This document shows, piece by piece, positions 5,827 through 34,798 of a stretch of DNA of 64,000 nt. The DNA comes from Bradyrhizobium barranii subsp. barranii (GTDB lineage Bacteria; Pseudomonadota; Alphaproteobacteria; Rhizobiales; Xanthobacteraceae). The notes under the pieces are model-generated. The model worked only from the letters and a program-made list of their open reading frames with translations. It had not been told where the DNA came from and searched no databases. The position numbers were made by a program, and so were the translations under genes. How positions within the stretch are numbered: the first letter of the stretch is position 1; every line of letters starts with the position of its first letter. The stretch is taken from contig NZ_CP086137.1 in the NCBI RefSeq assembly GCF_017565645.3, positions 62,001 to 126,000 on the forward strand. Direction: 5' to 3'.

Positions 5827-7584
5827 CTAGGTCTCCAGTTTAAGGTGAGAAGGTGCAGCGGGAGCGCTCGTGGCGCCGGAGTTGGCCGGGGTTGCGCAGG
5901 CGACACGAGCGCGGATTGCCGTGGCGTGATCGTCGTGAGCCTCGGCCTGCCGACCATTGTCGTCGGCGTCGCGCCGCACAGCGCGGCTGAAGAGGTCGCC
6001 GTATTCCGCGGGGGTACGGATCAGCGGATGATCCTGGGTGAGCGGCGATGCCGGCTGTGGCGTCACTCCAACCTGCTCGATCGCCTGTTCGAACAACCGC
6101 TCGACGGTCGCACGCACGTGCTTGTAGCGGTAGATGCGGTTGTCGATGGCGTGCGCGCAGGCCTGCTCGACCAGCCGCGCCGGATACTTCCGGCCCAGCC
6201 CGACAATGCCCCACATCGCGCGCTGTCCGGGGCGCCCTTCGGTGTCGAACACCTGCTGGCACAAGGCCCTGGTCTGCGGTCCGATGCGCTCGGCGCTCGC
6301 CAGCAGCACGGCGGTTTGCCGCGACGGGTTGAACGGCCGTTCGCTGGTCGGCAGGACGACAGAACCGGGGTGCGCCATCCGGGAATGAACACGCAGCAGC
6401 GCACGGGTGTGGCGATCACGGATCTCGATCGTGGTGGTGTAGATGCGCACGACGACCTGGCTGCCGATCGGCGCGGGCCGCGCGGCGTAATAGCTGTTGT
6501 CGACGCGTACGGTGGTGTCGTCGCAGACAGTCCGGACGACTTCGGTGAAGATGCGGAAGGGAGCGACAGGCAGCGGCCGCAGGTGCGGCTTCTCTTCCTG
6601 GAACATCGCCTCGACCTGACGGCGCGTGCTGCCGTGGATGCGTTTGGAAGCCCAGTTCTCCTCCCAGTGCCTCAAGAACTCGTTTTGCGCCTCCAGCGTC
6701 TCGAAGCGCCGTCCGGCCAGCGCAGTGCCCTGGGTATGTTGAATCGCATTCTCGACGCATCCTTTCCGATTTGGATCGGCCACGCGCGCGGGATCGGCGA
6801 CCACGGCGTAATGAGCCAGCATCGCGCTGTAAATCGGGTTGAGCTGGGGCTCGTACAAATCCGGCTTGAGGACGCCTTCCTTCAGGTTGTCGAGCACGAC
6901 ATAGCTGGGGACCCCGCCAAAATACCGGAACGCCTCTTCGTGGAGCTGCGCCCAGACTTGTTGGCTGGACTTCCAGACTACCCGCCGGAAGCTGCGCCGC
7001 GAGTAGCGTAGCGTCATCACGAACAGGCGGGGACGACGGTACCGCCCGCTCTTCGGATCAACCGTCGGCGCGCCCTCGCCATAGTCGACCTGAGCTTCCT
7101 CGCCGGGGAGGAACTCAAGACGATCAAACTGCTCAGGATCAGCGTGCCGCAACCGGCGCACAAACCGCTTGACACTCTGGTAGCTGGACGGAAAGCCAAA
7201 TTGATCAACCAGGTCCTGGTAAATCGCCTGCGCGTTCCGCTTCAGCCGGACCTGTTCTTCGATCCACGTCCGATGCGCTTCGCAAGCCGAACGGGCCAGG
7301 CTGCTGGTGACCGTCGCTTCCGATGTCCCAAAAGCCGGTGGTCGGGGTGGAGGAATTTGGCCGTCCGCGCTCACCGAGCCGGTGGTCACTTCCCCGGGGG
7401 AATTTGCCTCCGCACCGGCCCGCAGCGCCTGATAACGCCGGATCGTCTTGCGATCGACACCCGTCAGCCGGTGAATCTCGCGCTGGCTGGTGTTGCGATC
7501 AAGTAATGTAAGTACGGTGCTTTGCAGATGTCGCTTCAAGACGTTCAACTCCCCGGCCCCTTGCTGGCTAAAGGGGTCGAACAT
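5827..7584 (-). CDS. istA: IS21 transposase IstA
   Basis: 585-residue IS21 transposase. An N-terminal helix-turn-helix (LDRNTSQREIHRLTGVDRKT) is followed by the rve integrase core with Asp in EEAQVDYGEG, Asp in VVLDNLKEGV and Glu in KGCVENAIQH, then a Mu-transposase-like C-terminal domain. No frameshift is visible, so with istB downstream this element looks competent for transposition. The ATG at 7584 gives a normal-length protein. Confidence 0.9.
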   Translation of the reverse strand: MFDPFSQQGAGELNVLKRHLQSTVLTLLDRNTSQREIHRLTGVDRKTIRRYQALRAGAEANSPGEVTTGSVSADGQIPPPRPPAFGTSEATVTSSLARSACEAHRTWIEEQVRLKRNAQAIYQDLVDQFGFPSSYQSVKRFVRRLRHADPEQFDRLEFLPGEEAQVDYGEGAPTVDPKSGRYRRPRLFVMTLRYSRRSFRRVVWKSSQQVWAQLHEEAFRYFGGVPSYVVLDNLKEGVLKPDLYEPQLNPIYSAMLAHYAVVADPARVADPNRKGCVENAIQHTQGTALAGRRFETLEAQNEFLRHWEENWASKRIHGSTRRQVEAMFQEEKPHLRPLPVAPFRIFTEVVRTVCDDTTVRVDNSYYAARPAPIGSQVVVRIYTTTIEIRDRHTRALLRVHSRMAHPGSVVLPTSERPFNPSRQTAVLLASAERIGPQTRALCQQVFDTEGRPGQRAMWGIVGLGRKYPARLVEQACAHAIDNRIYRYKHVRATVERLFEQAIEQVGVTPQPASPLTQDHPLIRTPAEYGDLFSRAVRRDADDNGRQAEAHDDHATAIRARVACATPANSGATSAPAAPSHLKLET

Positions 7585-9253: not shown

Positions 9254-10077
9254 TCGACCGCGATCATGATCTTTCTATCGTGCGCCAGGCGAAGGTCCTG
9301 AAGCTGGCTCGCAGCACGGTCTACTATGAACCTCGGCCAGTTTCGGCCGAGGACCTTGCCTTGATGCGTCGGCTCGATGAGCTGCATCTCGATTATCCCT
9401 TCGCGGGAGCGCGTATGCTGCGATCGTTGCTGCGGCGGGAGGGCGTATACGCCGGTCGCCGCCACATCGCGACGCTGATGAAGCGCATGGGGATCGAGGC
9501 GGTCTATCGTCGCCCGAACACGAGCAAGCCGGCTCCGGGTCACAAGATCTACCCGTACCTGTTGCGCGGATTGAAGATCGAGCGGCCCGACCATGCGTGG
9601 GCAATGGACATCACCTACATTCCGATGCGGCGTGGCTTCGTCTATCTCGCGGCGGTCGTCGATGTGTTCAGCCGACGGGTCCTGGCCCATCGCGTCTCGA
9701 TCACAATGGAGGCGGCCTTCTGCGTCGAAGCGGTCCAGGAGGCGTTGGCGAAGCACGGCAGGCCCGAGATTTTCAACACGGATCAGGGCAGCCAGTTCAC
9801 CAGCCTCGAGTTCACCGATGTGCTGCTGGACGCGAAGATCGCCATCAGCATGGACGGCAAGGGCGCCTGGCGCGACAACGTGTTTGTCGAGCGGCTCTGG
9901 CGCACGGTCAAATACGAAGAAGTTTATCTCCGCGCCTACGACAGCGTGTCCGAGGCGCGAGCGTCAATTGCCAAGTATCTGGCCTTCTACAATCAGGGAC
10001 GCCCTCACTCGAGCCTTGACGGGCGCACGCCCGACGAGGCTTACTTCGGCACGCAAGCTATGGTGATGGCCGCATGA
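9250..10077 (+). CDS. IS3 OrfB transposase catalytic subunit, copy A
   Basis: 275-residue rve-type catalytic half. It shows the HTH_21 region (LDYPFAGARMLRSLLRREGV) and the DDE triad in [19 protein letters not shown] and VERLWRTVKYEEV. ATG 9250 overlaps the orfA stop as ATGA, the usual IS3 coupling or frameshift site. The sequence is intact and equal to copies B and C except for single-base differences. With orfA broken it is probably not productive alone. Confidence 0.9.
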   Translation: MIDRDHDLSIVRQAKVLKLARSTVYYEPRPVSAEDLALMRRLDELHLDYPFAGARMLRSLLRREGVYAGRRHIATLMKRMGIEAVYRRPNTSKPAPGHKIYPYLLRGLKIERPDHAWAMDITYIPMRRGFVYLAAVVDVFSRRVLAHRVSITMEAAFCVEAVQEALAKHGRPEIFNTDQGSQFTSLEFTDVLLDAKIAISMDGKGAWRDNVFVERLWRTVKYEEVYLRAYDSVSEARASIAKYLAFYNQGRPHSSLDGRTPDEAYFGTQAMVMAA

Positions 10078-10086
10078 CCGTCGCCG

Positions 10087-10143
10087 ACGGTTTTGTCGTC
10101 GCTCTGGTCGGGCTACGCCCTCCCGACGCAACGACAAAACCGT
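10087..10143. terminator. Conserved long hairpin at IS3 right end (copy A)
   Basis: ACGGTTTTGTCGT pairs with ACGACAAAACCGT around an inner GTCGGG/CCCGAC stem. The structure follows orfB by 10 bp and is present in all three copies. It could stop transcription leaving the element or act as a transposition-related cruciform. Confidence 0.5.
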
Positions 10144-10223
10144 AAAGCCCCGCGTTCAGCATAACCCGGCAGGAATCCACTTAAATCCAGCGGGGCGCTG
10201 TCCAAACAACCGGGGCCAGCTCT

Positions 10224-10639
10224 AAAGCGAGGTCTGTCGTCGGTTGATGACGATCCCTGGTGTCGGCCCCGTCACGTCGCTGGCCTTTATCAGCACGATC
10301 GACGTTCCCGCCCGCTTCAAGAGTTCGAAAGCCGTCGGGCCGTCCCTTGGATTGACGCCAGTTCTCAACCAGTCCGGCGAAAGCCACCGCATCGGCCGGA
10401 TTTCGCTGTGCGGTGATGAAGCCATGCGAGCGCTACTCTATGAGGCCGCACAGGTCATGCTGACGCGGGTGCAGAAATGGTCCTGGCTCAAGGCGTGGGC
10501 CATGCAGATCGCCAAACGACGCGGGCAGCAGAAGGCGATCGTCGCTTTGGCGCGGCGGCTCGCCGTCATCATGCACCGCATGTGGAGCGACGGAACGGAA
10601 TTCCGCTGGACACGGGAGGCCACGCCCGCGGCACAATAG
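10224..10639 (+). pseudogene. IS110-family transposase, 3' portion (copy 2)
   Basis: Begins directly at the IS3 end with the codons for SEVCRRLMTIPGVGPVTSLA and continues through the Transposase_20 region (GLTPVLNQSGESHRIGRISL, GDEAMRALLYEAAQ) to a stop at 10637-10639. The first 73 bp repeat 4908-4980 exactly, so this comes from a different IS110 copy than the 5' portion at 4.3 kb. It lacks the RuvC-like N-terminal half and cannot be active. Confidence 0.85.
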
Positions 10640-11069
10640 TGCGACGCGCGGTCCACGCACCCGTTGTTTAGCGGGAGGAGGTCCCTCGCGGGACGATGGA
10701 CGAGATGAGTTCGCTTTGGGCTCTTGTACGGTCGCGTCCTTGCGATCAGCACGCGAGTCAGATTGTTCCGTCTCGTTCTACTGATCCCATGCTGGGAGAG
10801 CCATACGGCTGATCCCGAAGAGAAGCACGGCCCCGCGAGCGGTACCGAACCCAAGGAGGCGCCCAATCAAGCCCTTGACTAAATCCGGCCGAATAGAGAA
10901 GAGCCCTTATTCCATGCCGAAACACAGCCATAGGCATCAACCCTTGTTTCGATGGTCGCTTGCTGTCGGACATCTTTAATGCTGCCGACCCGTGCCGTTG
11001 TGCCAGACGCCACCGGACGCGCAGATTGGGCTGCCCACGGAGGAGCCACTTCGTCCCTGACGACACCGG
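10640..11069. other. Non-coding stretch, probably IS110 3' end and flank
   Basis: No supported gene. IS110 elements carry a non-coding 3' tail (in this family the bridge-RNA or end region), and the first part of this stretch is likely that. The boundary with older DNA before 11070 cannot be placed. Confidence 0.3.
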
Positions 11070-11435
11070 CTAGTGCAGTTTGGGCGCAGCTGCGAAGAGT
11101 AGGAGTACGGCAAGCTCGATCTGGGCGTCGAAATCGCCATCGAGGGCCGCGAGTTCAAGATAGGGGATGGCGTCCCACGGGCTCATGGTCAGAAGCAGGT
11201 ATTCCCCGATGGCCCGATTGGCGACATGCTCCCCGGCGGCAGCTCTAGCTATAAGATCGGCACCGAGGGACCGAATGCGCGGATCGAAAGCGACGGCTGT
11301 CTGCCGGTGTACCCCTAGGGGATCGGAACTGAGATAAGTGACCTCGAAGAGTTCGGGACGGTTAGGGTCGGATCTGACGAAAACCGGACTGTGCTCGTCT
11401 ATACGGCACATCCGGCAGGCCTTCGACCAGCACAT
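11070..11435 (-). CDS. Hypothetical protein, small
   Basis: 121-residue frame. After a doubtful first 10 residues it reads like a protein: RSDPNRPELFEVTYLSSDPL then IRSLGADLIARAAAGEHVAN and a helical, Leu/Ala-rich tail (WDAIPYLELAALDGDFDAQI). No motif or membrane segment is recognised. It lies downstream of fic on the same strand, with about 110 bp between. The true start may be an internal codon. It could be a cargo gene of the same island or a truncated larger protein. Confidence 0.4.
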   Translation of the reverse strand: MCWSKACRMCRIDEHSPVFVRSDPNRPELFEVTYLSSDPLGVHRQTAVAFDPRIRSLGADLIARAAAGEHVANRAIGEYLLLTMSPWDAIPYLELAALDGDFDAQIELAVLLLFAAAPKLH

Positions 11436-11543
11436 CGAGAATTTTTTCTGGTTTCCGGAGGATGCATGGTGATGATCGATACTTGGAGTGGAATCGTATG
11501 TACGATTCTACGATGATCGTGTCTGGCGTTGCCCGCCGAAAAC

Positions 11544-12713
11544 TCAGGCGGCCGGCTGGTACAATCTCGGAAACCATCGATCGACAACGGCCGAGGGAAA
11601 GCCCAGCTTCACGGGCGAGCGCGTCGTGGGTGAAACGAGGTAGCCCTTTTCAATAAGGGCGTTGAGGACCGTTCGCGCTTGGCGTTCTTCGTATCCCGTA
11701 AGGGTAGGCGCATTACCCCGCGTGTACTCTCCGGCCATGACCGCTTCGCGCAGTAAAGGCCAAGAGCCCTTTGGAAGCCGCTTTGCACGCGTTTCCTCCT
11801 CGGTCCAGATCTCCATCCGCCTGAGCAGTTCTTCCGGTTCCAAAAGCCCCGTCATGAAGTCGACCTGGTCAACGCAGGTGGTAAGGAAGAATTGGCAGAA
11901 CCCGACAAGCCCCGACATCGTGAGATTACCGCGGCCATCAAGGTCACCGCGCCGCGGTTCGTCTGCCGCCTGTAGGTTTGCTTTATAATCGGCGACTCGC
12001 CGCGCGAGTCCCCGCGAGACGGCCCAAAGCTCAGAGCCGACTTCTAACTCGCGCAAGAGTGCATGTGAGAACAGGCGTGTCACGCGGCCATTACCGTCCA
12101 GAAACGGGTGAATCCAGGCCAGGCGATGGTGTGATGCCGCAACGCCGATAATTTTGCGTAGCTTTGAAAGGTGAGGGGACGAATATCCTTCGGCAAAACG
12201 CTTCAGGAATGCGGGGAGATCGGCTGGATCGGGAGGGATGTGACGCCCCACTCTCACCTGGTCTTGGCGAAGTTCGCCGGGTACGATCTTGATCTTCTTC
12301 TTGGTCGTGGGATGGTCAACGACCAGCAGCTCTTCGGGCAGGCGTTCGCAGAAGTTTTTGTGCGTCCAGACAATAAAATCGACGGACAGCGCGGGCGAGG
12401 GGGCTTCGCCGCGATCGATAATCTGCTGAACTTCAATGTGAGCGCGCGCCTCTAATTGCAGATTCCGGCGCTCCGGCTCCTTGGCCAGGTCGTTGTTCAG
12501 TGCTCGATCAATGTCGATGGGCAGTGTGTTGTGGCCCTCGATGAGGTTGGAGTAGTAACAGTTCATCGAACGCACCAGATCGCCTACCGAGGCCCTCATG
12601 ACCGGGTGGAGGCGGCCGGCCAGCGTGTTGGCCCTTGCAACCAAATCAGTTGCGAGATCTTCGAGTTCCTGCCGATCCTCGGGCAGGAGAGGCTCCATTG
12701 CTGATACATCCAT
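11544..12713 (-). CDS. fic: Fic-domain protein (AMPylator-type toxin/regulator)
   Basis: 389 residues. The Fic catalytic loop HPFLDGNGR is at residues 202-210. The inhibitory helix motif S-x-x-x-E-G (SNLIEG, residues 55-60) is N-terminal to it, as in class II self-inhibited Fic proteins. A C-terminal winged-helix-like segment (LTGYEERQARTVLNALIEKG) follows. Fic enzymes usually transfer AMP from ATP to a hydroxyl side chain of a target protein; the target cannot be read here. The start ATG 12713 follows a GGAAG ribosome site. The gene is divergent from the helix-turn-helix gene at 12891, and the shared 177-bp AT-rich intergenic region holds two palindromic operators, suggesting common control. 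All catalytic residues are present, so it is probably functional. Confidence 0.88.
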   Translation of the reverse strand: MDVSAMEPLLPEDRQELEDLATDLVARANTLAGRLHPVMRASVGDLVRSMNCYYSNLIEGHNTLPIDIDRALNNDLAKEPERRNLQLEARAHIEVQQIIDRGEAPSPALSVDFIVWTHKNFCERLPEELLVVDHPTTKKKIKIVPGELRQDQVRVGRHIPPDPADLPAFLKRFAEGYSSPHLSKLRKIIGVAASHHRLAWIHPFLDGNGRVTRLFSHALLRELEVGSELWAVSRGLARRVADYKANLQAADEPRRGDLDGRGNLTMSGLVGFCQFFLTTCVDQVDFMTGLLEPEELLRRMEIWTEEETRAKRLPKGSWPLLREAVMAGEYTRGNAPTLTGYEERQARTVLNALIEKGYLVSPTTRSPVKLGFPSAVVDRWFPRLYQPAA

Positions 12714-12838
12714 TTTGCCGCTTCCTTTGCCGCCAGAATATATAGCAATATCAATCGATATATAAAGATTAGTGCTGCCCGTTTTGCCGGTTTTATTGCC
12801 GCTTCAAAAGGCAAATAAATGAATGGATCTCTTTACTA

Positions 12839-12855
12839 TAGGGCCAATGGTCCTA
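12839..12855. promoter_or_regulatory. Palindromic operator 1 (fic / HTH intergenic)
   Basis: TAGGGCCAATGGTCCTA is a 17-bp near-perfect palindrome. It shares the TAGGnCCAAnGGnCCTA pattern with operator 2, centred 25 bp downstream, close to two and a half helical turns away. A likely binding site for the adjacent helix-turn-helix protein. Confidence 0.6.
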
Positions 12856-12863
12856 TATATAAC

Positions 12864-12880
12864 TAGGTCCAACGGACCTA
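12864..12880. promoter_or_regulatory. Palindromic operator 2, 10 bp before HTH start codon
   Basis: TAGGTCCAACGGACCTA; arms extend to CTAGGTCC/GGACCTAG (8 bp perfect). It ends 10 bp before ATG 12891, covering the ribosome-binding region, so repression of its own gene is the simplest reading. Confidence 0.6.
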
Positions 12881-12890
12881 GGAAAGCCTT

Positions 12891-13574
12891 ATGACTCTCG
12901 TCAGAACACCGGAAGCTTTGAAGGACGCGCGCGCTTCGCTTGGATTAAGCGCAGACGCCTTGGCCAAAATCGTGCGGGTTGAAGATGGGCGCACGGTCCG
13001 CCGATGGGAAGCCGGCGAACGCGAAATCCCCGGGCCTGTTATCGTTATTCTGGAAGCGGCCATCGGCTATCTCGACAGCATCAAGCTGATCGACACGCAG
13101 CTGGCCATGTTGCGCTCGGGCAAAATGACCAGCGGCGAAACAACGAGTGCTGGCAGGATCGATCAGACCGACGCCGACATTGAACGTCTCACGGTCTCTC
13201 GAAAGAGCCTTGTAGAGGCCCTGGAGATACTGACCCGGCAGCCGGCCAATGATGGCTCAGACCGGGTTCATTGGTACACTTTGCAGCGGGCAACACCGCT
13301 ATTTGACCCGGCACAAAAGGACGAATGGTCGATCCCCGGAGAACTGAGCCCTGAAGCTGCCTTGGCCTATTTTGCCAAGCATGAGGGGTTCGACGAAGGG
13401 CTCGAAGTCGCCAACGACGAAGGCCCTCTTAAGGAGTTCGTTCTTGAAAAGCGCGAAGTGCTACGCCGTCAAGTTGGCGCCTCGCAGCGCCTCAGCGCGG
13501 GCCGCGTGATCCAGACCTATGCGGTGCGCCGACATCTCAGGAGCTATGCGGGAAACTGGGTGATGACGGAATGA
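12891..13574 (+). pseudogene. Helix-turn-helix regulator, last residues replaced by IS256 insertion
   Basis: The N-terminal 45 residues form an XRE-like DNA-binding fold (LSADALAKIVRVEDGRTVRR then WEAGEREIPGP). The middle is helical and the remainder is unknown. IS256 copy 1 entered after 13540. Joining the two sides across the 9-bp repeat ACATCTCAG restores a natural end RRHLRHSNP and a stop at 14950, so the native protein had about 219 residues. The present frame reads through the IS end and stops with SYAGNWVMTE instead. Only about four terminal residues differ, so DNA binding may survive. It probably controls itself and the divergent fic gene through the two palindromes upstream. Confidence 0.65.
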
Positions 13575-14935
13575 GATAGGCGGCGTATCGAGGCGGGTGT
13601 CGAGCCTGCCAGAACCTCAAGGAGAGCGATACGCCATGAACGAGCATAGCAACATTGTCCCACTGCGTCAGCCCGATGAGATCGACGATCCACTGACGAA
13701 TATTTTGCGATCTGGAGCTCGGCAGCTGCTTGCGCAGGCTGTCGAGATGGAAGCCGAGGCGTTTCTCGCCGCGATGAAGGGCTTGAAGCTTCCCGATGGC
13801 CGCGACCGCCTCGTGCGACACGGCCATGGTCCAGTGCGGACGATCCAGACGGGGATCGGCGCCGTCGAAGTCGCCCGGGTAAAGATTCGCGATCGCGCGG
13901 TGACCCGCGATGGCGAGCGGATCCGCTTCACCTCGGCGATCCTGCCGTTGTGGGCACGGCGCACGAAGAGCTTGGATGCACTTTTGCCGGTTCTGTACCT
14001 GCGAGGCATCTCGACGGGCGACTTCCAGGAGGCGCTGGCGGCGCTCTTGGGCAAGGATGCGCCGAATCTTTCTCCGGCGGTGGTTTCCAGACTGACGACG
14101 GAGTGGCAGCTCGAGTACGAGCGTTGGCAGAAGCGCGATCTGTCGGCGCGCCGGTACGTATACGTGTGGGCGGACGGCGTCTTCCTGCAGGCTCGCATGG
14201 AAGACCACAGCGAATGCATGCTGGTGCTGATCGGCGCGACGCCGGAAGGCAAGAAGGAACTCATCGGCTTCCAGGTCGGCGTGCGCGAGAGCACGCAGAG
14301 CTGGCACGAACTGCTCGTCGAGGCGAAAACCCGTGGGCTGAAGATCGCCCCGGAAATCGCCGTCGGTGACGGCGCGCTCGGCTTCTGGAAGGCGCTCGAC
14401 GAGGTCTTTCCCGCCACGCGACATCAGCGGTGCTGGGTGCACAAAACCGCGAATATCTTGAACAAAGTCGCAGTGTCGGTACAGGCCAGCATGAAGAAGG
14501 ATCTGCGCGAGGTCTATTTGGCGTCCAACCGAGCTTCGGCCGAAGTGGCGATCGATGTCTTTGCCGAGAAATACGGAGCGAAGTACGACAAGGCGGTCGA
14601 GTGCCTGACGAAAGATCGCGACGCAATGCTTGCGTTCTACGAATTCCCCGCCGAGCATTGGGACCACTTGCGGACGACGAATCCCATCGAAAGCGTGTTC
14701 GCGACGGTCCGGCACAGAACGGTGCGCACGAAAGGTTCGTTATCGTCAACGACTGCCAAGTTGATGGTGTTCAAGCTGCTCTGCGCCGCATCAAAGACCT
14801 GGCGGCGGCTGAAAGGCACAAATCAGTTGCCGAAGGTCATCGCAGGTGTCAGATTCGAAAACGGCATCGAGGTCATCCAAGTGCCGGAAAACCACGCCGC
14901 CTGATCGCCTCGTCACCCAAAATCCCGCATAGCTC
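13541..14935 (+). mobile_element. IS256-family element, copy 1, with 9-bp target repeat
   Basis: Ends GAGCTATGCGGGA (13541) and TCCCGCATAGCTC (to 14935) are a perfect 13-bp inverted repeat. Direct repeats ACATCTCAG flank it at 13532-13540 and 14936-14944. It sits in the 3' end of the helix-turn-helix gene. Confidence 0.92.
13636..14904 (+). CDS. IS256-family (Mutator) transposase, copy 1
   Basis: 422 residues from ATG 13636 (MNEHSNIVPLRQPDE) behind an AAGGAGAG ribosome site. DDE triad: Asp in YVWADGVFLQ, Asp in AVGDGALGFWKAL and Glu in TTNPIESVFATV. Full length and without frameshift, so this copy looks active. It is clearly homologous to copies 2 (16.4 kb) and 3 (62.4 kb) but not identical to them, so they are different elements of the same family. 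Confidence 0.92.
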   Translation: MNEHSNIVPLRQPDEIDDPLTNILRSGARQLLAQAVEMEAEAFLAAMKGLKLPDGRDRLVRHGHGPVRTIQTGIGAVEVARVKIRDRAVTRDGERIRFTSAILPLWARRTKSLDALLPVLYLRGISTGDFQEALAALLGKDAPNLSPAVVSRLTTEWQLEYERWQKRDLSARRYVYVWADGVFLQARMEDHSECMLVLIGATPEGKKELIGFQVGVRESTQSWHELLVEAKTRGLKIAPEIAVGDGALGFWKALDEVFPATRHQRCWVHKTANILNKVAVSVQASMKKDLREVYLASNRASAEVAIDVFAEKYGAKYDKAVECLTKDRDAMLAFYEFPAEHWDHLRTTNPIESVFATVRHRTVRTKGSLSSTTAKLMVFKLLCAASKTWRRLKGTNQLPKVIAGVRFENGIEVIQVPENHAA

Positions 14936-22980: not shown

Positions 22981-23706
22981 ATGTCCCCGAAAGCCGATGA
23001 TGCTGATGATCATGGCGACGGATTTCTTATGACGACCCCATGGAAACCGTACGCTTGCACGGTGACGGCCGCAGGCGTTGCCGGCACCGCTTCGGTGCTG
23101 TCGACCGTGCATCATGTCACGCACACCGGGCCGGCCTTACGTATACTAGCTGATGGGCAGGTTACCCGAGGGTTGATCTACGACGAGTGTATCCTCAACG
23201 ACTCCCGCACGACGGTCGTCTGGTTATCTCCCAACAACTGGCACAATGGCTCGCGTTACGGCTGCGTCCAGTTCACTTTTAATTTTGCCGACATCGTCGC
23301 ACGCCGAAAGATCTATTGGGTGGAGGTTCGCAAATACAAGAACCACGCCTACCGCTTCATGATTTCCGACAAGGACTTGAGCAAGCTGCCGGTTACCCCC
23401 TACGACCCCACAAAGGAAGAGGGGCCGCTGCGACAGGTCGGCGGAGTCTGGTACTGGAATTCGGAGCACACGGCGGAATTCCTGCTCGATTCCAGTCTGA
23501 TCCTTCATTTCTGCAAGAAGATCGATTTCGTCAAGCATCACGAGAAGATGTGTGCTGCACCAGGTGGCTGCGGGCAGCTTGGCCAGGACGGCACCAACGC
23601 CGCCGGGAGAGTCCTGGCCTTTCTGCTCTCCAGAGACCTACGAGGTCTAAACGACACATTCGACCATGGCGGCGAAGTTCTCGGAGCTAAAGAGTGCTCC
23701 CGCTGA
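22981..23706 (+). CDS. Uncharacterised protein, possible ADP-ribosyltransferase-like fold
   Basis: The compact core reads LSTVHHVTHTGPALRILADG, QVTRGLIYDECILNDSRTTV, VWLSPNNWHNGSRYGCVQFT and YWVEVRKYKNHAYRF. An early His-x-Thr, a middle Tyr/Ser segment and a late Glu after a Trp-Val strand recall DarT- and ART-type enzymes that modify nucleic acid or protein. This is inference from pattern only, and I do not recognise the family by name. A Cys-containing tail follows (MCAAPGGCGQLGQDG). The start may be 22981 or 23029 (MTTPWKPYACT). Residues after about DLRGLNDTF (23655) may be foreign, since the adjacent higA remnant is also cut there. Its position between Abi and toxin-antitoxin remnants suits a defence or toxin role. 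Confidence 0.5.
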   Translation: MSPKADDADDHGDGFLMTTPWKPYACTVTAAGVAGTASVLSTVHHVTHTGPALRILADGQVTRGLIYDECILNDSRTTVVWLSPNNWHNGSRYGCVQFTFNFADIVARRKIYWVEVRKYKNHAYRFMISDKDLSKLPVTPYDPTKEEGPLRQVGGVWYWNSEHTAEFLLDSSLILHFCKKIDFVKHHEKMCAAPGGCGQLGQDGTNAAGRVLAFLLSRDLRGLNDTFDHGGEVLGAKECSR

Positions 23707-24009: not shown

Positions 24010-24127
24010 CGCTCTCCCTTTGTTGCCTTGTGGATGGCCTCGGCTTCGCGCAAGCGCTGCCGGACCAGGTCTATGTGCCGTTGCGGGGTCGCAATCCCGC
24101 TGGTGGATTTCTTCTGGAACGCGTGTG
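24006..24127 (-). pseudogene. higB: HigB/RelE-type toxin, C-terminal fragment
   Basis: Reading from the IS3 copy B border the frame gives HAFQKKSTSGIATPQRHIDL then VRQRLREAEAIHKATKGER and a stop overlapping the higA start. The HAFQKKS...TP...I.L...R pattern is the conserved end of phage-related Gp49/HigB toxins, ribosome-dependent mRNA interferases. About two thirds of the gene is missing on the other side of the element, and the sequence right of copy B does not supply it. Confidence 0.75.
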
Positions 24128-24215
24128 AGAGCTGGCCCCGCAAATTCGGACAGTAGCTTGAGTGGATTTTCTGCCTGACAGCGGCGAGGATTCTTGCTGC
24201 GAATCAGGAGCGAAG

Positions 24216-24521
24216 ATGACGAAGAAGAGCCGCCGGACGCATTCTCCGGCATTCAAGGCGAAGGTTGCTTTGGCTGCGGTCAAAGGCGACAAGACACTGG
24301 CGGAGCTGGCGCAACTGTTTGATGTTCATCCGAACCAGATCACGATCTGGAAAAACCAGCTCCTGGAAGGCGCCGCCGGCGTGTTTGGGCATGACAAGAC
24401 ATCGGCCGAGACGCCGGTCGATTTGAAGGCGTTACATGCCAAGATCGGCGAGCTGGCGTTGGAAAACGATTTTTTGTCCGGCGCGCTCACCAAGGCGGGC
24501 CTGCTGAGCGCAAAGCGATGA
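24216..24521 (+). CDS. IS3 OrfA, copy B
   Basis: 101 residues from ATG 24216 ([20 protein letters not shown]), preceded by AGGAGCGAAG. Helix-turn-helix LAELAQLFDVHPNQITIWKN and a zipper-like helix HAKIGELALENDFLSGALTK. The open frame extends 54 bp upstream into the element end, but the MTKK start is the conserved one. Its stop overlaps the orfB start. This copy has the AACT tetranucleotide missing from copy A. Confidence 0.92.
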   Translation: MTKKSRRTHSPAFKAKVALAAVKGDKTLAELAQLFDVHPNQITIWKNQLLEGAAGVFGHDKTSAETPVDLKALHAKIGELALENDFLSGALTKAGLLSAKR

Positions 24522-25345
24522 TCGACCGCGGTCATGATCTTTCTATCGTGCGCCAGGCGAAGGTCCTGAAGCTGGCTCGCAGCACGGTCTACTATGAACC
24601 TCGGCCAGTTTCGGCCGAGGACCTTGCCTTGATGCGTCGGCTCGATGAGCTGCATCTCGATTATCCCTTCGCGGGAGCGCGTATGCTGCGATCGTTGCTG
24701 CGGCGGGAGGGCGTATACGCCGGTCGCCGCCACATCGCGACGCTGATGAAGCGCATGGGGATCGAGGCGGTCTATCGTCGCCCGAACACGAGCAAGCCGG
24801 CTCCGGGTCACAAGATCTACCCGTACCTGTTGCGCGGATTGAAGATCGAGCGGCCCGACCATGCGTGGGCAATGGACATCACCTACATTCCGATGCGGCG
24901 TGGCTTCGTCTATCTCGCGGCGGTCGTCGATGTGTTCAGCCGACGGGTCCTGGCCCATCGCGTCTCGATCACAATGGAGGCGGCCTTCTGCGTCGAAGCG
25001 GTCCAGGAGGCGTTGGCGAAGCACGGCAGGCCCGAGATTTTCAACACGGATCAGGGCAGCCAGTTCACCAGCCTCGAGTTCACCGATGTGCTGCTGGACG
25101 CGAAGATCGCCATCAGCATGGACGGCAAGGGCGCCTGGCGCGACAACGTGTTTGTCGAGCGGCTCTGGCGCACGGTCAAATACGAAGAAGTATATCTCCG
25201 CGCCTACGACAGCGTGTCCGAGGCGCGAGCGTCAATTGCCAAGTATCTGGCCTTCTACAATCAGGGACGCCCTCACTCGAGCCTTGACGGGCGCACGCCC
25301 GACGAGGCTTACTTCGGCACGCAAGCTATGGTGATGGCCGCATGA
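24518..25345 (+). CDS. IS3 OrfB, copy B
   Basis: 275 residues, DDE triad as in copy A. It differs from copy A by single bases, for example GACCGCGGTCATG against GACCGCGATCATG near its start (Asp to Gly at residue 5) and GAAGTATATC against GAAGTTTATC. Intact, and probably the source of active transposase for this family. Confidence 0.92.
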   Translation: MIDRGHDLSIVRQAKVLKLARSTVYYEPRPVSAEDLALMRRLDELHLDYPFAGARMLRSLLRREGVYAGRRHIATLMKRMGIEAVYRRPNTSKPAPGHKIYPYLLRGLKIERPDHAWAMDITYIPMRRGFVYLAAVVDVFSRRVLAHRVSITMEAAFCVEAVQEALAKHGRPEIFNTDQGSQFTSLEFTDVLLDAKIAISMDGKGAWRDNVFVERLWRTVKYEEVYLRAYDSVSEARASIAKYLAFYNQGRPHSSLDGRTPDEAYFGTQAMVMAA

Positions 25346-25354
25346 CCGTCGCCG

Positions 25355-25411
25355 ACGGTTTTGTCGTCGCTCTGGTCGGGCTACGCCCTCCCGACGCAAC
25401 GACAAAACCGT
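25355..25411. terminator. Conserved long hairpin at IS3 right end (copy B)
   Basis: Same ACGGTTTTGTCGT/ACGACAAAACCGT structure as in copy A, downstream of orfB. Confidence 0.5.
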
Positions 25412-25673
25412 AAAGCCCCGCGTTCAGCATAACCCGGCAGGAATCCACTTAAATCCAGCGGGGCGCTGTCCAAACAACCGGGGCCAGCTCTGACCGCTCT
25501 GCAAATTGAAGCCATAGCGCCTTACCTACCCGAGCCAACCCGACCCACAGACCAACACTCCCGGCGGCAATCGGTTGGTGTCTAAATACAGACAATGACT
25601 TTCGTAGCATGCGGAGCATCGCTCTATTGAAAGTTGTGCCGCGGTCGGTGAGAATGTGCCGAGGGGAGAGGCC

Positions 25674-25868
25674 ATGGTTTTCAAATTCAGTGATACTGCG
25701 CCTTTGGGCGACAATTTTGCAGCATACAGTGCAGAGCTTGAACAGTTGGACTCGACGCTTGGACCTGTTCTAGCGACCCGGCTCAATGATCTCGCCGCCG
25801 GTGCGGAGCCGGCGCTGATTTGGGACGAGCTTCTCGCTGCGCTAGCGAAAACGCCGAAGGCACCATGA
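25674..25868 (+). CDS. Small helical protein, first gene of the zinc-hook ATPase cluster
   Basis: 64 residues from ATG 25674, behind a good GGGGAGAG ribosome site (a longer in-frame start at 25656 is less likely). It is acidic and helical: FAAYSAELEQLDSTLGPVLA, LNDLAAGAEPALIWDELLAA. No family recognised. Its TGA overlaps the ATG of the large ATPase gene (ATGA at 25865-25868), so the two are translationally coupled and probably form a complex or an effector/regulator pair. The size and position resemble the small accessory subunits seen next to SMC-like ATPases in defence systems, but that is context only. Confidence 0.65.
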   Translation: MVFKFSDTAPLGDNFAAYSAELEQLDSTLGPVLATRLNDLAAGAEPALIWDELLAALAKTPKAP

Positions 25869-28327
25869 GCGGCTGGTTTTTGGAACGCCTCGAGATCGAG
25901 GGTGTACGCGGCATCAACAATGAGGGTGATCCTCTGGTGTTGAGTTTCGCGCACGATGCCGTCAACTCCGTTTCCGCGCCCAACGGCGTCGGCAAGAGCT
26001 CTATCTTTGACGCACTCACATACGCATTGCGCAAGAAGATTCCGAAGCTCGACGAGCTGCCGGCGACGGAAAGCGGTGATTCTTACTACTTGAACCGCTT
26101 TCATTCAAAAAACACGGGAACGATTCGTTTGACCGTGCGGCCAGACGGCGGAGGGGCGCCCGTTTCGCTCACCATAACCCGCAACGCCCTCGGCGTTCGC
26201 AAGGTGACTTCCCCAGCCAACATCGACGGCGAGAAGCTTCTGGAGTCCCTCAACCGCGATTTCGTCCTGCTCGACCACAAGACGCTGCAGTCCTTCATCG
26301 ATGATAAGGCCCTCGACAGGGGGCGAGCCTTTGCGGGCTTGCTTGGACTCGCCGCATACTCGACCCTGCGTCAGGTACTGCAAGGGCTTGCCAACACGCG
26401 AGCCTTCAACAACCACTTCGAGGTTAAAGTCCTGACGCAACAGGAAACCTCCTTGAAGGCAACGATTGCCAAGCAGCAGGCTGAGGCGGTCGCGGCGTTT
26501 CAGTTACTGACGCAGACCTCTCTCCATGAGCAGAAAGATCACGCGGCTGCGATCGCAAAGGCACATGATGCGTTGCATCAGATCGCGGTTCTCATGCCGC
26601 ACTGCGCTGGCAAGAGCTTTGCTGATATAGCACTCGACGACTGCGTGGAGTCGATCAAGAAGGCTGAAGGAGGCGATGGTCCGGCGCGCCTGGCTACGTT
26701 GCGACGCCAGGAGACCACGTACACAAGCCAAATCTCGATGGGACCAACCGATGCGGACCATCAGCAACTGCTCGCGCTCGCGCAACAGCGCGACACTACG
26801 TTGTCAAAGACAGCTGGCCGGTTGCTGAAGGATCTTTACGCCGCGAGCCGCGCCGTTCTTGTGGATGAGTGTTGGCCGAACAAGAACAAGTGCCCGGCTT
26901 GCGAGCATGAAGGCTCCGGACCTTTGCTTCCCGACTTGGAGGTGCGCCTGGCCGCTTTCCAAGAGCTCGAGGACTGCACGGTCAACATCGATGCCGAATG
27001 GAAGGCAAAGTCGTGGAGCGATTTGCGCAAGCTGGAGGAGGCCCATGCCGTCAAGGATGAGAAGCTACTTTTCGCCAATCTGGCCCATAGGCCCGAATTG
27101 GCTCTAACCGCGGCGAACGTTGCAGATCTTTGGACCTGGCGAAACACGTTGATCGACCGAGCGTCGGCGGCCCTCAAGGACACAAAGACCAAGCGCGAGG
27201 CGCTGGAGAAGGAACTTCCGGCGTCCCTCGTTGCGGTCACGACCGCGGTTGAGGCCGCCAGACGCCTGCAGAAGGCTTGGAATGAAATCGAGGGCGCGCA
27301 GGCCTCTCTCACGAAAGTCACCGGCAAGCTTGCGGCCATCACGCGGATCAAGGCCTTCCTAGACCGGGCGAGTGAGACCTTCGCTACCGCGGAGGCGAAT
27401 CTTTCCAAGCGCCGGTTGGCCGCCGTCGAGCCCCTGTGTCAGAAGTTCTTCGGCTCGATCATGTACCAGCCTGTCAAGCCGTCGCTGGCCAAGGCCGATG
27501 GTGCCGAGGCTCTTTCTATCGGTCTGTCCGAGTTTTTCACGCTCAAGAACGTGTCCGCGCAGGCGCTCCTCTCTGAGAGCTTCCGCAACGCGTTTGCCGT
27601 GTCGGTCTACCTGGCGGCGGCGATGCTTTATGGAGGCGAGCCGCGGTTCGTGGTTCTTGACGATGTGACCTCCAGCTTCGACGCGGGGCACCAATTCCAC
27701 CTGATGGAGCTCATTCGTACCCAGTTTGCGCGTCCGATGCAGGCTGACGGGCCACAAGTCATTCTTCTGAGCCATGACACCCTCCTCGAGAAGCGTTTCA
27801 ACCGCAACAGCGGCCAGGGGTGGCGACATCAACGGTTGGAAGGGACAGCCCGCACGGCCGTGTTGCCGCAATCTGATGCGGTCAATCGTGTTCGTGATGC
27901 CACTTTGCGGTTCCTGCAGGCCGGCCAGATCGACGACGCGGCGCCGCGACTTCGTCAGTACCTGGAGCATCGGCTACTGGAGATCATCCAGAAAGTGAAA
28001 ATCCCGGTCCCGATTGATTTCGCGCTCGACGACAACAATAAGCAGGTGGGCAATGCGGTGGCCGCGATCGAGGCGGCCGTGAAGTTGCACAAGGCCGCCG
28101 GCGATCTGATCCTGGATGCAGCACAGCAAGCGGGCCTACAGACTCATATGGCCAGTATCACCGGCAATTTCGTGGCCCACTACGCGACGGGGACGACCAA
28201 CGCGTTCTCCAGCCCATCCTTGCAGGGCGTGATGCAAGCAATCGACACCTATGCCGAATGCTTCATGTGCGAGGATCCGCCTGGCAGCGGCACCAAGCGC
28301 TTCTACCGCTCACTGAATAAACGATGA
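25865..28327 (+). CDS. Rad50/SMC-like ATPase with zinc hook and possible HEPN-like C-terminus
   Basis: 820 residues. Walker A APNGVGKSS at residues 38-46. Long charged coiled-coil arms on both sides of a CPAC zinc-hook motif (Cys343, Cys346). An ABC-like signature region (LKNVSAQALLSESFRNAFAV) precedes Walker B FVVLDDVTSSFD (Asp599-600) and the H-loop LLSHD. After the ATPase head there are about 190 more residues: a helical RLRQYLEHRLLEIIQ segment, then TGNFVAHYATG (Asn768, His772), then a CFMCED end. N-x-x-A-H after a preceding Arg-rich helix resembles HEPN ribonuclease or RloC-type effector ends; this part is inference. The start is fixed by overlap with the upstream small gene. Rad50-like proteins tether DNA ends, and defence relatives sense phage DNA. 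The protein is intact and, with 25674 and 28412, forms the best-preserved unfamiliar cluster in the window. Confidence 0.8.
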   Translation: MSGWFLERLEIEGVRGINNEGDPLVLSFAHDAVNSVSAPNGVGKSSIFDALTYALRKKIPKLDELPATESGDSYYLNRFHSKNTGTIRLTVRPDGGGAPVSLTITRNALGVRKVTSPANIDGEKLLESLNRDFVLLDHKTLQSFIDDKALDRGRAFAGLLGLAAYSTLRQVLQGLANTRAFNNHFEVKVLTQQETSLKATIAKQQAEAVAAFQLLTQTSLHEQKDHAAAIAKAHDALHQIAVLMPHCAGKSFADIALDDCVESIKKAEGGDGPARLATLRRQETTYTSQISMGPTDADHQQLLALAQQRDTTLSKTAGRLLKDLYAASRAVLVDECWPNKNKCPACEHEGSGPLLPDLEVRLAAFQELEDCTVNIDAEWKAKSWSDLRKLEEAHAVKDEKLLFANLAHRPELALTAANVADLWTWRNTLIDRASAALKDTKTKREALEKELPASLVAVTTAVEAARRLQKAWNEIEGAQASLTKVTGKLAAITRIKAFLDRASETFATAEANLSKRRLAAVEPLCQKFFGSIMYQPVKPSLAKADGAEALSIGLSEFFTLKNVSAQALLSESFRNAFAVSVYLAAAMLYGGEPRFVVLDDVTSSFDAGHQFHLMELIRTQFARPMQADGPQVILLSHDTLLEKRFNRNSGQGWRHQRLEGTARTAVLPQSDAVNRVRDATLRFLQAGQIDDAAPRLRQYLEHRLLEIIQKVKIPVPIDFALDDNNKQVGNAVAAIEAAVKLHKAAGDLILDAAQQAGLQTHMASITGNFVAHYATGTTNAFSSPSLQGVMQAIDTYAECFMCEDPPGSGTKRFYRSLNKR

Positions 28328-28411
28328 TGCGCCTTCATCGCCTTAGTTGAAGGCGGCGAATCCGCTGGTAGAATCCGAACTATGTCTACTTAGAAGGAGT
28401 GGCGACCAGCT

Positions 28412-29530
28412 ATGTCTCCTGTCGGCGCCATGTATGTCGGCCGATCTAAGGAGTTTGAGAAGCTGAAATCTCTCCTGACTGGAGAATTTCCGCGAAGCGT
28501 CGTCGTGACGGGCCTGGGCGGGATTGGAAAGACGAGCTTTGTTCAAATGTTTGCCCACGCCGCTGCGGATTTATTTCCCGACGGCGTGGAGTTCTTAAGT
28601 GCGCCACTCCACGAGGCCAGGGCGGCACAGCCCATTGGGCTACCGGCTCCCATCGTCGCCCGATTTCTGTTGGTAGTCGATGATCTCGACAGGGTGTCAT
28701 GGGAAGCCCAGTCTCAGTTGATGAAGCAGCTTGACGAGGCTCACTTCCGGTATCCAAATCTGCGAAGCATCGTGATTTCGCGTGTCCAACTCGCACGTAT
28801 GTCCTCCGAGCAGATCGTGCTGGGCGGCCTGGATGAGCGAGAGTTCTACCTGCTCGCTAACAACGTCGCTGAGGAGATGGGGGCGTCCCTCCAGCTGCAA
28901 GACCTTCAACGGCTGCGAGAAATCTCACAGGGACACCCCGCAATTGTGAGTTTGGCACTGCAGGAGCTCCGCAGCGGTCGGAGCGATGCCATAGGTGAGA
29001 TACTCCGTCACCTGCGAGGTTTTCGAGCAAATGGCCTTGTGGGGCCTGACGGCAGGCCGCTGAAGGGCGATTCCGAGCGGCAGGTCATTGTTGAGGTCAG
29101 CACGGCCAACGATGAGATCCTCAAGCTTCTGAGGGCCGAGCCAGAACTGGTGAGGAGCCTACCGCCCCGCAAGTTTGAAGAGTTGGTCGGAGAGATACTG
29201 GCCAAGATGGGCTACGAGATCACATTGACCCCCGAAAAGAGGGGCGGTGGATTCGACATCTATGCCGCACGAAAAGAAGGATTAGGGCAATTCCTCTATT
29301 TGGTCGAATGCAAGCGATACGCTCCTACGCACAAAGTGGGAGTCGAGATCGTGCGATCGCTTCATGGGGTTCTTCAGGCCGAGCGAGCGACCGCCGGCGC
29401 AATCGTCACAACGTCATTCTTTACGTCAGGGGCCAGGGAATATCAGCAGCGCATTGAACACCAGATGCAACTGCACGACTACATCACGCTCCAGACCTGG
29501 ATAAAGGGATTCCCGCTCACTCGAAGTTAG
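28412..29530 (+). CDS. STAND-type ATPase fused to Mrr-like restriction nuclease
   Basis: 372 residues. The N-terminal half is a compact NB-ARC/STAND NTPase: MYVGRSKEFEKLK entry motif, P-loop GLGGIGKT (residues 34-41), Walker B RFLLVVDDLDRV and a GHPAIVSLAL sensor-like motif. The C-terminal 120 residues are an Mrr-type PD-(D/E)xK nuclease: KFEELVGEILAKMGYEITLT, Asp282 in GGFDIYAA and E299-C-K301 in VECKRYAP. An AGAAGGAG ribosome site lies before ATG 28412; ATG 28430 is an alternative. The gene starts 84 bp after the zinc-hook ATPase on the same strand. Avs-type immune proteins combine STAND and nuclease modules but carry a large C-terminal sensor. Here the nuclease is C-terminal and the sensor is absent, suggesting the neighbouring ATPase supplies recognition. 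Fully intact. Confidence 0.82.
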   Translation: MSPVGAMYVGRSKEFEKLKSLLTGEFPRSVVVTGLGGIGKTSFVQMFAHAAADLFPDGVEFLSAPLHEARAAQPIGLPAPIVARFLLVVDDLDRVSWEAQSQLMKQLDEAHFRYPNLRSIVISRVQLARMSSEQIVLGGLDEREFYLLANNVAEEMGASLQLQDLQRLREISQGHPAIVSLALQELRSGRSDAIGEILRHLRGFRANGLVGPDGRPLKGDSERQVIVEVSTANDEILKLLRAEPELVRSLPPRKFEELVGEILAKMGYEITLTPEKRGGGFDIYAARKEGLGQFLYLVECKRYAPTHKVGVEIVRSLHGVLQAERATAGAIVTTSFFTSGAREYQQRIEHQMQLHDYITLQTWIKGFPLTRS

Positions 29531-30068: not shown

Positions 30069-30407
30069 TCAGCTACCCAGAATGCCGCGCATCTCTGATA
30101 AAACTTCGATCATCAAACGAGGCTTGATGCGACCGAGCCGTTCCGCGTCGCGCGCCTCTATCGTCGCTATCTTACAAGGTCGAATGATGGAGGGAGCAGG
30201 CAGACCGGCCTCTTCGTAGCGACTGATTGCAATATCCCCGGGCCATGTTCTGTTTTCAGCACTCGTGATCATCACCACCCAAAGAAGGTTTCCATTTTCC
30301 CCGATGCCTCCTGTGGATACAACGAGTGCCGGGCGATGCTGACGAGTTGATCGATCAGTGTACGGGAAAGGAACCCTAACGACGTCACCCTGCTTAAAGG
30401 CTGGCAT
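30069..30407 (-). CDS. mazF: MazF/PemK-family mRNA interferase toxin
   Basis: 112 residues from ATG 30407 (MPAFKQGDVVRVPFPYTDRS). The GDVVRVPFPYTD start, RPALVVST strand, WVVMITSAENRTWPGDI core and IIRPCKIATIEARDA segment are those of MazF/PemK ribonucleases, which cleave mRNA at short sites and arrest growth. The start is chosen because it overlaps the end of the antitoxin gene by 14 bp, the normal coupled order; the longer in-frame start at 30461 lies inside mazE. The toxin appears complete. As a pair it stabilises the region or acts in stress or phage response. Confidence 0.85.
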   Translation of the reverse strand: MPAFKQGDVVRVPFPYTDRSTRQHRPALVVSTGGIGENGNLLWVVMITSAENRTWPGDIAISRYEEAGLPAPSIIRPCKIATIEARDAERLGRIKPRLMIEVLSEMRGILGS

Positions 30408-30609
30408 AGGCTTTCCGATCTGCCTCGCTGTCCCATTCGCTGAAGGTGACGAAGGGATCATCGACCAGAGCAGGTTCAGCCTTTGTCAGCACGACCTTAT
30501 CACCAGTGATCGTATAAGCGATCTCATCACCTTCCTTCAGATGCAGAGCGGTTCGGACTGCCTGGGGGATCGTGGTTTGAGCTTTGGTAGTCAGTTTACT
30601 CGTAATCAT
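30394..30609 (-). CDS. mazE: AbrB/MazE-family antitoxin
   Basis: 71 residues from ATG 30609 (MITSKLTTKAQTTIPQAVRT). The SpoVT/AbrB swapped-hairpin DNA-binding fold is followed by the GDEIAYTITGDKVVLTKAEP strand pair and a toxin-binding tail rich in acidic residues (DDPFVTFSEWDSEADRKAYA). An ATG 18 bp upstream (30627) is less typical. GGAGGGG precedes 30609. Expected to repress its own promoter through the palindromes just upstream. Confidence 0.85.
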   Translation of the reverse strand: MITSKLTTKAQTTIPQAVRTALHLKEGDEIAYTITGDKVVLTKAEPALVDDPFVTFSEWDSEADRKAYASL

Positions 30610-30632
30610 GCGCACCCCTCCAGTCAAGGACT

Positions 30633-34125: not shown

Positions 34126-34798
34126 AAGACGAGGCTACGGGCCTCAACGCCTCGGCCGGCATCTCCTACAACAAGCTCTTGGCGAAACTCGCCTCGGACC
34201 ACCGCAAGCCGAACGGACAGTACGTCATCACGCCGGAGATGGGACCTGGATTCGTTGAGGCGCTTCCGGTCGGGAAATTCCACGGCATCGGCTCACGAGC
34301 GCGAAGATGAACGCGCTCGGTCTCCACACCGGTCTCGATATGCGCAAGCAGACGCTCGAATTTATGCAGGCCAATTTCGGTAAGGCCGGCGCCTACTACT
34401 ATTGGATCTCGCGCGGCGTCGACAACCGCGAGGTACGTGCGAACCGCATCCGAAAATCCGTCGGCGCCGAGAACACGTTCTCCGCGGACCTCACGGATTT
34501 CGATGCGATGGTCGCCGAACTGGAGGCGCTCATCGACAAGGTCTGGCGGCACTGCGCGGAGAAGGGCTCGCGCGGACGGACAGTCACGCTGAAGGTGAAG
34601 TTCAACGACTTCGAGATCATCACCCGAAGCAGGTCGATCCCGACGGCGGTTTCGACCCGCGAAGATCTCGAGCGCCTAGCGGTCGCGATGCTGCAGAACC
34701 AGATCCCGATGCCGAAGCCGGTCCGGCTACTCGGCCTCTCGCTCTCGTCGCTCGACGGGGCGGAACATGAAGTCTCGCAACTCGAGCTGCCGATATAA
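34126..34798 (+). pseudogene. dinB: DNA polymerase IV (DinB) fragment, frameshifted
   Basis: The first frame gives [20 protein letters not shown] then [20 protein letters not shown] and [13 protein letters not shown]. The rest ([40 protein letters not shown], the little-finger domain and LLGLSLSSL) lies in a second frame from 34307. A single-base indel in GGCATCGGCTCACGAGCG at about 34293 separates them. The first 110 or so residues of the palm domain, including the catalytic acids of Y-family polymerases, are absent upstream. It cannot make a polymerase. The end (stop 34796-34798) is native. Confidence 0.82.

Follow-up and report, generated by a model that had tools for sequence, protein, structure and literature searches.

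A mobile small-ORF and zinc-hook ATPase cassette in Bradyrhizobium resembles RloC and adjoins a loosely linked Mrr-type nuclease gene

The described systems closest to the locus reported here are RloC, PrrC and Lamassu. RloC is described as carrying an Arg-x3-Glu-x36-52-His triad, often with a Ser before the His, and all three triad residues are required for the tRNase activity of GkaRloC; PrrC, which is without the zinc-hook insert, is associated with type I restriction-modification (R-M) systems, and R-M linkage is rare in RloC (PMC2610378). The RNase of RloC is activated by linear DNA and DNA-breaking agents (PMC3874168), and an account of Lamassu (ABC-3C) gives LmuB as often bearing a CPxC hook and LmuC as the small middle component (PMC10586767). 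Here, we analyzed 64,000 nucleotides of Bradyrhizobium barranii subsp. barranii (NZ_CP086137.1, positions 62,001 to 126,000, forward strand; hereafter the window), in which a small open reading frame (ORF), a gene for a Rad50-like zinc-hook ATPase and a gene for an Mrr-type nuclease lie in a row. In our best reading, small ORF and ATPase together make up the functional unit, a stand-alone two-gene cassette that is one gene in some relatives. We put at slightly better than even the chances that this pair is an RloC-like toxin, an RNase that is gated by DNA ends and has a separable regulatory domain, rather than a licenser of the Mrr nuclease.

The window belongs to a contig of 317,868 bases (G000:C2) in a genome of 11.4 Mb, and all three genes are intact in it. 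The first encodes a small helical protein of 64 amino acids (25674..25868, + strand) and is present as a single copy in this genome; the second encodes an ABC ATPase of the zinc-hook Rad50/SMC-like kind with 820 amino acids (25865..28327, +); and the third encodes a 372-amino-acid protein in which a P-loop NTPase is joined to an Mrr-type PD-(D/E)xK nuclease (28412..29530, +). Small ORF and ATPase gene overlap by four bases (ATGA), and 84 bases separate the ATPase gene from the Mrr gene. The original prediction, which coupled a small ORF by ATGA to a Rad50-like zinc-hook ATPase, was confirmed in its lengths, overlap, gap and residue numbers.

An ATPase homologue is present at the 38 loci that we read, 37 of them distinct (L022 and L103 are one genome): those of all 19 Bradyrhizobium genomes with a full-length match, G102 with a broken copy, G078, three further loci and 14 of 19 matching plasmid records. 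Remnants in G002, G004, G010 (a second copy), G027, G056 and G103 and the plasmid matches H2, H6, H11, H18 and H19 were left out. The small ORF lies directly 5' of the ATPase gene in 31 of the 38 loci and is fused to it in frame in seven (L023, L041, L054, L095, L126, L127 and L128), and none of the 38 has the ATPase without the small ORF or domain. Because the small ORF is letter-for-letter identical in six loci (L042, L043, L045, L098, L099 and L100), the 38 are not all independent. Where it is separate, the small ORF is about 62-98 codons long, depending on the start chosen, and overlaps the ATPase gene by four bases in 24 of the 31 loci (23 by script, plus L104); the remaining seven range from an overlap of a few bases to a 12-base gap (L131) and include L125, though its annotation too gives a 4-base overlap.

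A tree of 125 ATPases requires three changes between the fused and the split state; most fused forms make up one large clade, and a fused Arthrobacter stands apart from it. One of the split entries in this tree, P0062 (813 amino acids), may come from a shortened record. AlphaFold models the small domain of the fused homologue P0087 (predicted local distance difference test, pLDDT, 88) as four helices (15-68), and a low-confidence linker connects it to the ATPase. Substitution rates at nonsynonymous (dN) and synonymous (dS) sites reveal purifying selection on the small ORF (dN 0.104, dS 1.449, dN/dS about 0.07) and on the ATPase (dN 0.057, dS 0.700) in comparison with B. iriomotense (L021), and on the ATPase tail in comparison with L039 (dN 0.070, dS 3.296, a rough figure with dS saturated). 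No PADLOC model matched the small protein, which its fusions in relatives and its dN/dS mark as an N-terminal ATPase domain that can exist as a separate protein.

The ATPase itself is recognized by its motifs and their conservation: Walker A with K44, the hook C343-P-A-C346, the signature LSESFRN, Walker B LDD and H637, with the hook C343-P344-x-C346 conserved at 1.0 among 126 sequences. Fold matches of the head and arms include Rad50, SMC and RecF as well as Lamassu structures, no NCBIfam model scored above its cut-off, and the best PADLOC match is the LmuB model PDLC03859 (E=1.3e-20, residues 8-654). The LmuB match and the Lamassu structures, together with the zinc hook and the small gene upstream, would suit a Lamassu variant with the ATPase as LmuB, the small ORF as LmuC and either the Mrr protein or a lost gene as effector. 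On the other hand, a genuine RloC matches the same LmuB model at 7.4e-17, so this match shows the general class only and is not specific, and PADLOC LmuA matched neither the Mrr protein nor the 10 neighbor proteins scanned from seven loci, p155_2 included (neighbors at other loci were read by annotation only). A tail of about 165 residues also lies outside the LmuB match, and Walker B is LDD, as opposed to the E-to-Q change described for LmuB; we regard a Lamassu variant as quite unlikely. The idea that an LmuA-type gene was lost through insertion of the IS3-family element upstream is not supported, since the Bradyrhizobium plasmid p155_2, with no IS3 at this place, has no gene between the DUF2130 gene and the small ORF in the annotation of PLSDB, whose gene tables are incomplete, and the two upstream genes of p155_2 match no PADLOC model.

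The C-terminal tail of the ATPase (residues 655-820; 27827..28324, +) looks like a built-in effector, a putative RNase of HEPN-like type. It is helical in the P0087 model, where the block from residue 771 has a pLDDT of mostly 83-94 with dips to 70, and it holds few near-invariant polar positions, with H655 and H772 at 1.0 (126 sequences) and R697, Y699, E701, Q754 and N768 at 0.99. These make up the near-invariant motifs R697-x3-E701 and N768-x2-(A/S)-H772 (A in the window); a set of 18 sequences that spans Actinomycetota shows no variation at the tail R, Y, E, N and H. The near-invariance of R697, E701, N768 and H772 supports the original suggestion that the ATPase carries its own effector. 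Like RloC, the pair has a Rad50-like ABC ATPase, a CxxC zinc hook and a helical tail with Arg-x3-Glu followed by (N-x2-S/A-)His, and it usually lies outside R-M operons. The RloC family of Bradyrhizobium (117 sequences), several members of which are named wobble nucleotide-excising tRNase, reads R646-x3-E650 and N684-D-G-S687-H688 with a spacing of 37.

Several results weigh against an RloC-like RNase. The spacing from E701 to H772 is 70 residues, outside the 36-52 of RloC, and the ATPase reaches 27.1 bits against Pfam AAA_13 (PF13166), below the cut-off of 36 and over residues 591-648 only. With hhalign, the tail was not aligned with the RloC tail (probability 0.3%; shallow profiles with an effective number of sequences, Neff, of 2-3), and only the ATPase lobes of both families were (probability 80%, residues 562-664); a profile of the tail did not find RloC L105 (E 2.1). 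The tail has no significant Pfam or PDB sequence match, the four PDB matches being at chance level (best E 0.32), and G, A or S replaces the R of the HEPN Rx4-6H motif before N768-x3-H772; HEPN families without that R are described (PMC3710099). No HEPN or RloC structure is among the 50 fold matches listed, which span residues 95-758 of 911 and barely include the tail. Neither hhalign nor the tail profile aligns the two tails, which leaves membership in RloC by profile unsupported; it is architecture and residue pattern that carry the likeness, not a proven tail homology.

PrrC shares with the pair an ABC ATPase with a C-terminal R-x3-E...H and, in one relative (G078), the R-M linkage, but it differs in having no hook insert and in its type I linkage, and PADLOC gave no PrrC match for the pair. 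Because LmuA is missing from the proteins scanned, the spacing and the AAA_13 score depart from RloC and the R of Rx4-6H is replaced, we file the pair under none of RloC, Lamassu and HEPN. Judged by sequence, and with its extra small N-terminal partner or domain, it is best called an RloC-like but distinct variant outside the named systems. In agreement with the original prediction, the cluster as a whole matched no named system in PADLOC and NCBIfam searches, and no description of the pair was recognized among the matches listed by a literature search whose coverage excluded bioRxiv and most subscription papers.

The tail profile picked up 10 of 26 distant ATPases at E < 0.01 (best L077, 1.1e-10), chiefly by way of the R-x3-E helix; the majority of the 26 were chosen beforehand for their match to the ATPase itself. 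Other ABC ATPase tails have R-x3-(E/D) and a later N-x2-(S/T)-H or N-x3-H (L020, L077, L078, L117; L074, L084), and some of them end in a Cys-rich segment; tails of this type possibly form a wider class of ATPase-RNase toxins. The window's genome also holds broken AAA_13 (RloC-type) remnants with stop codons at G000:C4:10052-11355.

The cassette is mobile and travels in defense islands. Full-length ATPase is found in 19 of 265 Bradyrhizobium genomes (42 of 265 when broken, partial and distant matches are included) and is absent from the same-species genome G107, and a wider class search gave 10 of 385 besides its own genome, partial and distant. Among 72,556 plasmid records, 19 match the ATPase, 17 of them over at least 80% of the query; these plasmids belong to Alphaproteobacteria and Actinomycetota, with Bradyrhizobium, Rhizobium, Sinorhizobium, Sphingopyxis, Cereibacter, Rhodococcus, Arthrobacter and, weakly, Aliiroseovarius as hosts. 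The ATPase was found in none of 50,697 phage records; single-protein scans of phages and viral contigs likewise found neither it nor the Mrr protein, and alignment scans of these gave one ATPase fragment (L136) and three loci matching the Mrr half.

Strong PADLOC matches among the scanned neighbors are QatA beside the cassette in B. iriomotense (L021 5248-7224, - strand; 1009 bits), a ShosA and ShosT pair before it in G017 (L039 10256-11795, -) and a type III methylase (L044); a DrmC-like nuclease (L022) matched weakly, and five of the 10 proteins had no match. Annotated defense or toxin genes occur in half of the 12 plasmid stretches opened (6/12: L050, L053, L056, L127, L128 and L131), and two further stretches had no gene table. 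In G078 (L044), the pair lies 24 bases behind a ResIII gene (9767-12358, -) that adjoins the methylase gene (12363-14093, -). This position behind a type III R-M-like operon may recall PrrC in R-M loci, and it fits the association of PrrC, and in rare cases of RloC, with R-M systems.

A different role would be that of a Rad50/SbcC-like ATPase in DNA repair or plasmid maintenance, having no part as a toxin and a tail that is structural or partner-binding. The Rad50-, SMC- and RecF-like head and arms and the plasmid location are consistent with it, as is S. meliloti pMl9 (L128, 7956-12169, -), where the fused ATPase lies near an annotated pair of SMC family ATPase and exonuclease SbcCD subunit D. 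However, near-invariant R, E, N and H in the tail are hard to explain structurally, the distribution across Bradyrhizobium is patchy and accessory, and no Mre11-like partner is a constant neighbor in the loci read. We hold this role to be unlikely.

We also asked how the third gene relates to the pair. Mrr proper has a DNA-reading N-terminal domain, whereas the N-terminal half of the third protein is a P-loop NTPase. Its nuclease half resembles Mrr and type IV nucleases, with an Mrr_cat match of 5.6e-28, NA-iREase1 above its cut-off and an intact D...E-x-K in which D282, E299 and K301 are invariant among 67 sequences. For the STAND part originally proposed, NACHT, NB-ARC and nSTAND gave nothing above cut-off.

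The original prediction further had the ATPase sensing DNA ends and licensing this nuclease in a three-gene system. Both are intact and adjacent in the window and in p155_2, and since the latter adjacency is real, Mrr homologues do occur beside the ATPase elsewhere. The homologue pairs P0005/P0125 and P0009/P0126 (91/88% and 82/82%) lie on contigs of equal size (131,658 and 34,043), which suggests adjacency there too, at similar divergence; compared by eye, they are the only such pairs among the best 120 of 294 and the best 120 of 198 matches, and this small number speaks against a three-gene system. So does the finding that, of the 21 other genomes in which the ATPase occurs (as broken copies in G102 and G103), none has the Mrr protein (P0003) in full length and 10 have partial, distant Mrr matches elsewhere in the genome. 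DNA similarity between the window and B. iriomotense L021 spans 25566 to 28316, covering small ORF and ATPase, and ends with the ATPase, while in B. barranii pBb323S2a an IS256 element (insertion sequence, IS) splits the Mrr gene beside an intact pair. The USDA 123 plasmid (L057) lacks the ATPase pair and retains, beside an IS256 element, no more of the Mrr gene than its 3' end (6016-6339).

A tblastn search around the ATPase, or what remains of it, at 13 other loci gave no P0003. Among 100 relatives, the full-length Mrr protein is in the window's own genome only; a search of 398 Pseudomonadota genomes at E 1e-15 added G715 and G725, and a profile search of 299 genomes at E 1e-25 gave G715 only, with the nuclease half in each case. 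The 84-base gap holds an inverted repeat (CGCCTTCA...TGAAGGCG; 28330..28355, +; hairpin z -2.06 in a 98-nucleotide stretch) and, overlapping it, a promoter-like TTGAAG-16-TAGAAT (28347-28374, +) found by consensus; both count weakly against a shared system. Tight coupling was rejected on the 0/21 full-length copies, the end of homology in L021 and the IS-split gene in B. barranii, and the same evidence leaves the licensing claim unsupported; we judge a three-gene system very unlikely. The predicted co-occurrence holds for the pair (38 of 38 loci) and not for Mrr membership, though the gene is adjacent in p155_2. By its domain matches and linkage, the Mrr gene looks like a local Bradyrhizobium neighbor encoding an independent type-IV-like nuclease, not a fixed part of the cassette.

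Upstream of the small ORF, a consensus scan alone gave a promoter-like TTGAAA-17-GAGAAT (25627..25655, +), with 2 sites observed against 1.1 expected; both hexamers are kept in B. iriomotense L021. The IS3-family element, named ISRj2 in the B. barranii annotation, is inserted farther upstream, outside the cassette (24127..25492, +), and matches copies in p155_2 and pBb323S2a at 98-99%. p155_2, pBb323S2a and the USDA 123 plasmid carry a DUF2130 gene, most of which the window lacks at 23658-23660 (versus L050 3301-5105). Beyond the Mrr gene lie a PemK/MazF-type toxin gene (30069-30461, - strand), preceded by an AbrB-like small ORF (span 30069-30627, -) labeled antitoxin by eye, and an ORF with the C-terminal domain only of a Y-family (impB/mucB) DNA polymerase (34307-34798).

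In the RloC-like toxin that we favor, the Rad50-like head and zinc-hook arms would sense broken or foreign linear DNA, and ATP turnover would release the C-terminal tail. The tail, through R697, E701, N768 and H772, would then cleave RNA, probably tRNA, and halt translation in the cell under infection or plasmid invasion. Regulation or assembly of the ATPase may be the role of the small helical domain, which in fused forms is tethered by the disordered linker, and the P-loop-Mrr gene would be an independent type-IV-like nuclease gene adjoining the cassette in one Bradyrhizobium lineage. It is highly improbable that in this lineage the pair commands two effectors, its own RNase-like tail against translation and the adjacent P-loop-Mrr nuclease against DNA; if so, a two-effector system would have been built recently from two free-standing modules and would now be being dismantled by IS elements. 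If the RloC-like toxin is real, the few zinc-hook ATPases believed to convert DNA breaks into an arrest of translation would gain a plasmid-borne family whose control domain is found in nature both fused and split. The locus also illustrates that a neighboring nuclease gene in a defense island need not belong to the system beside it.

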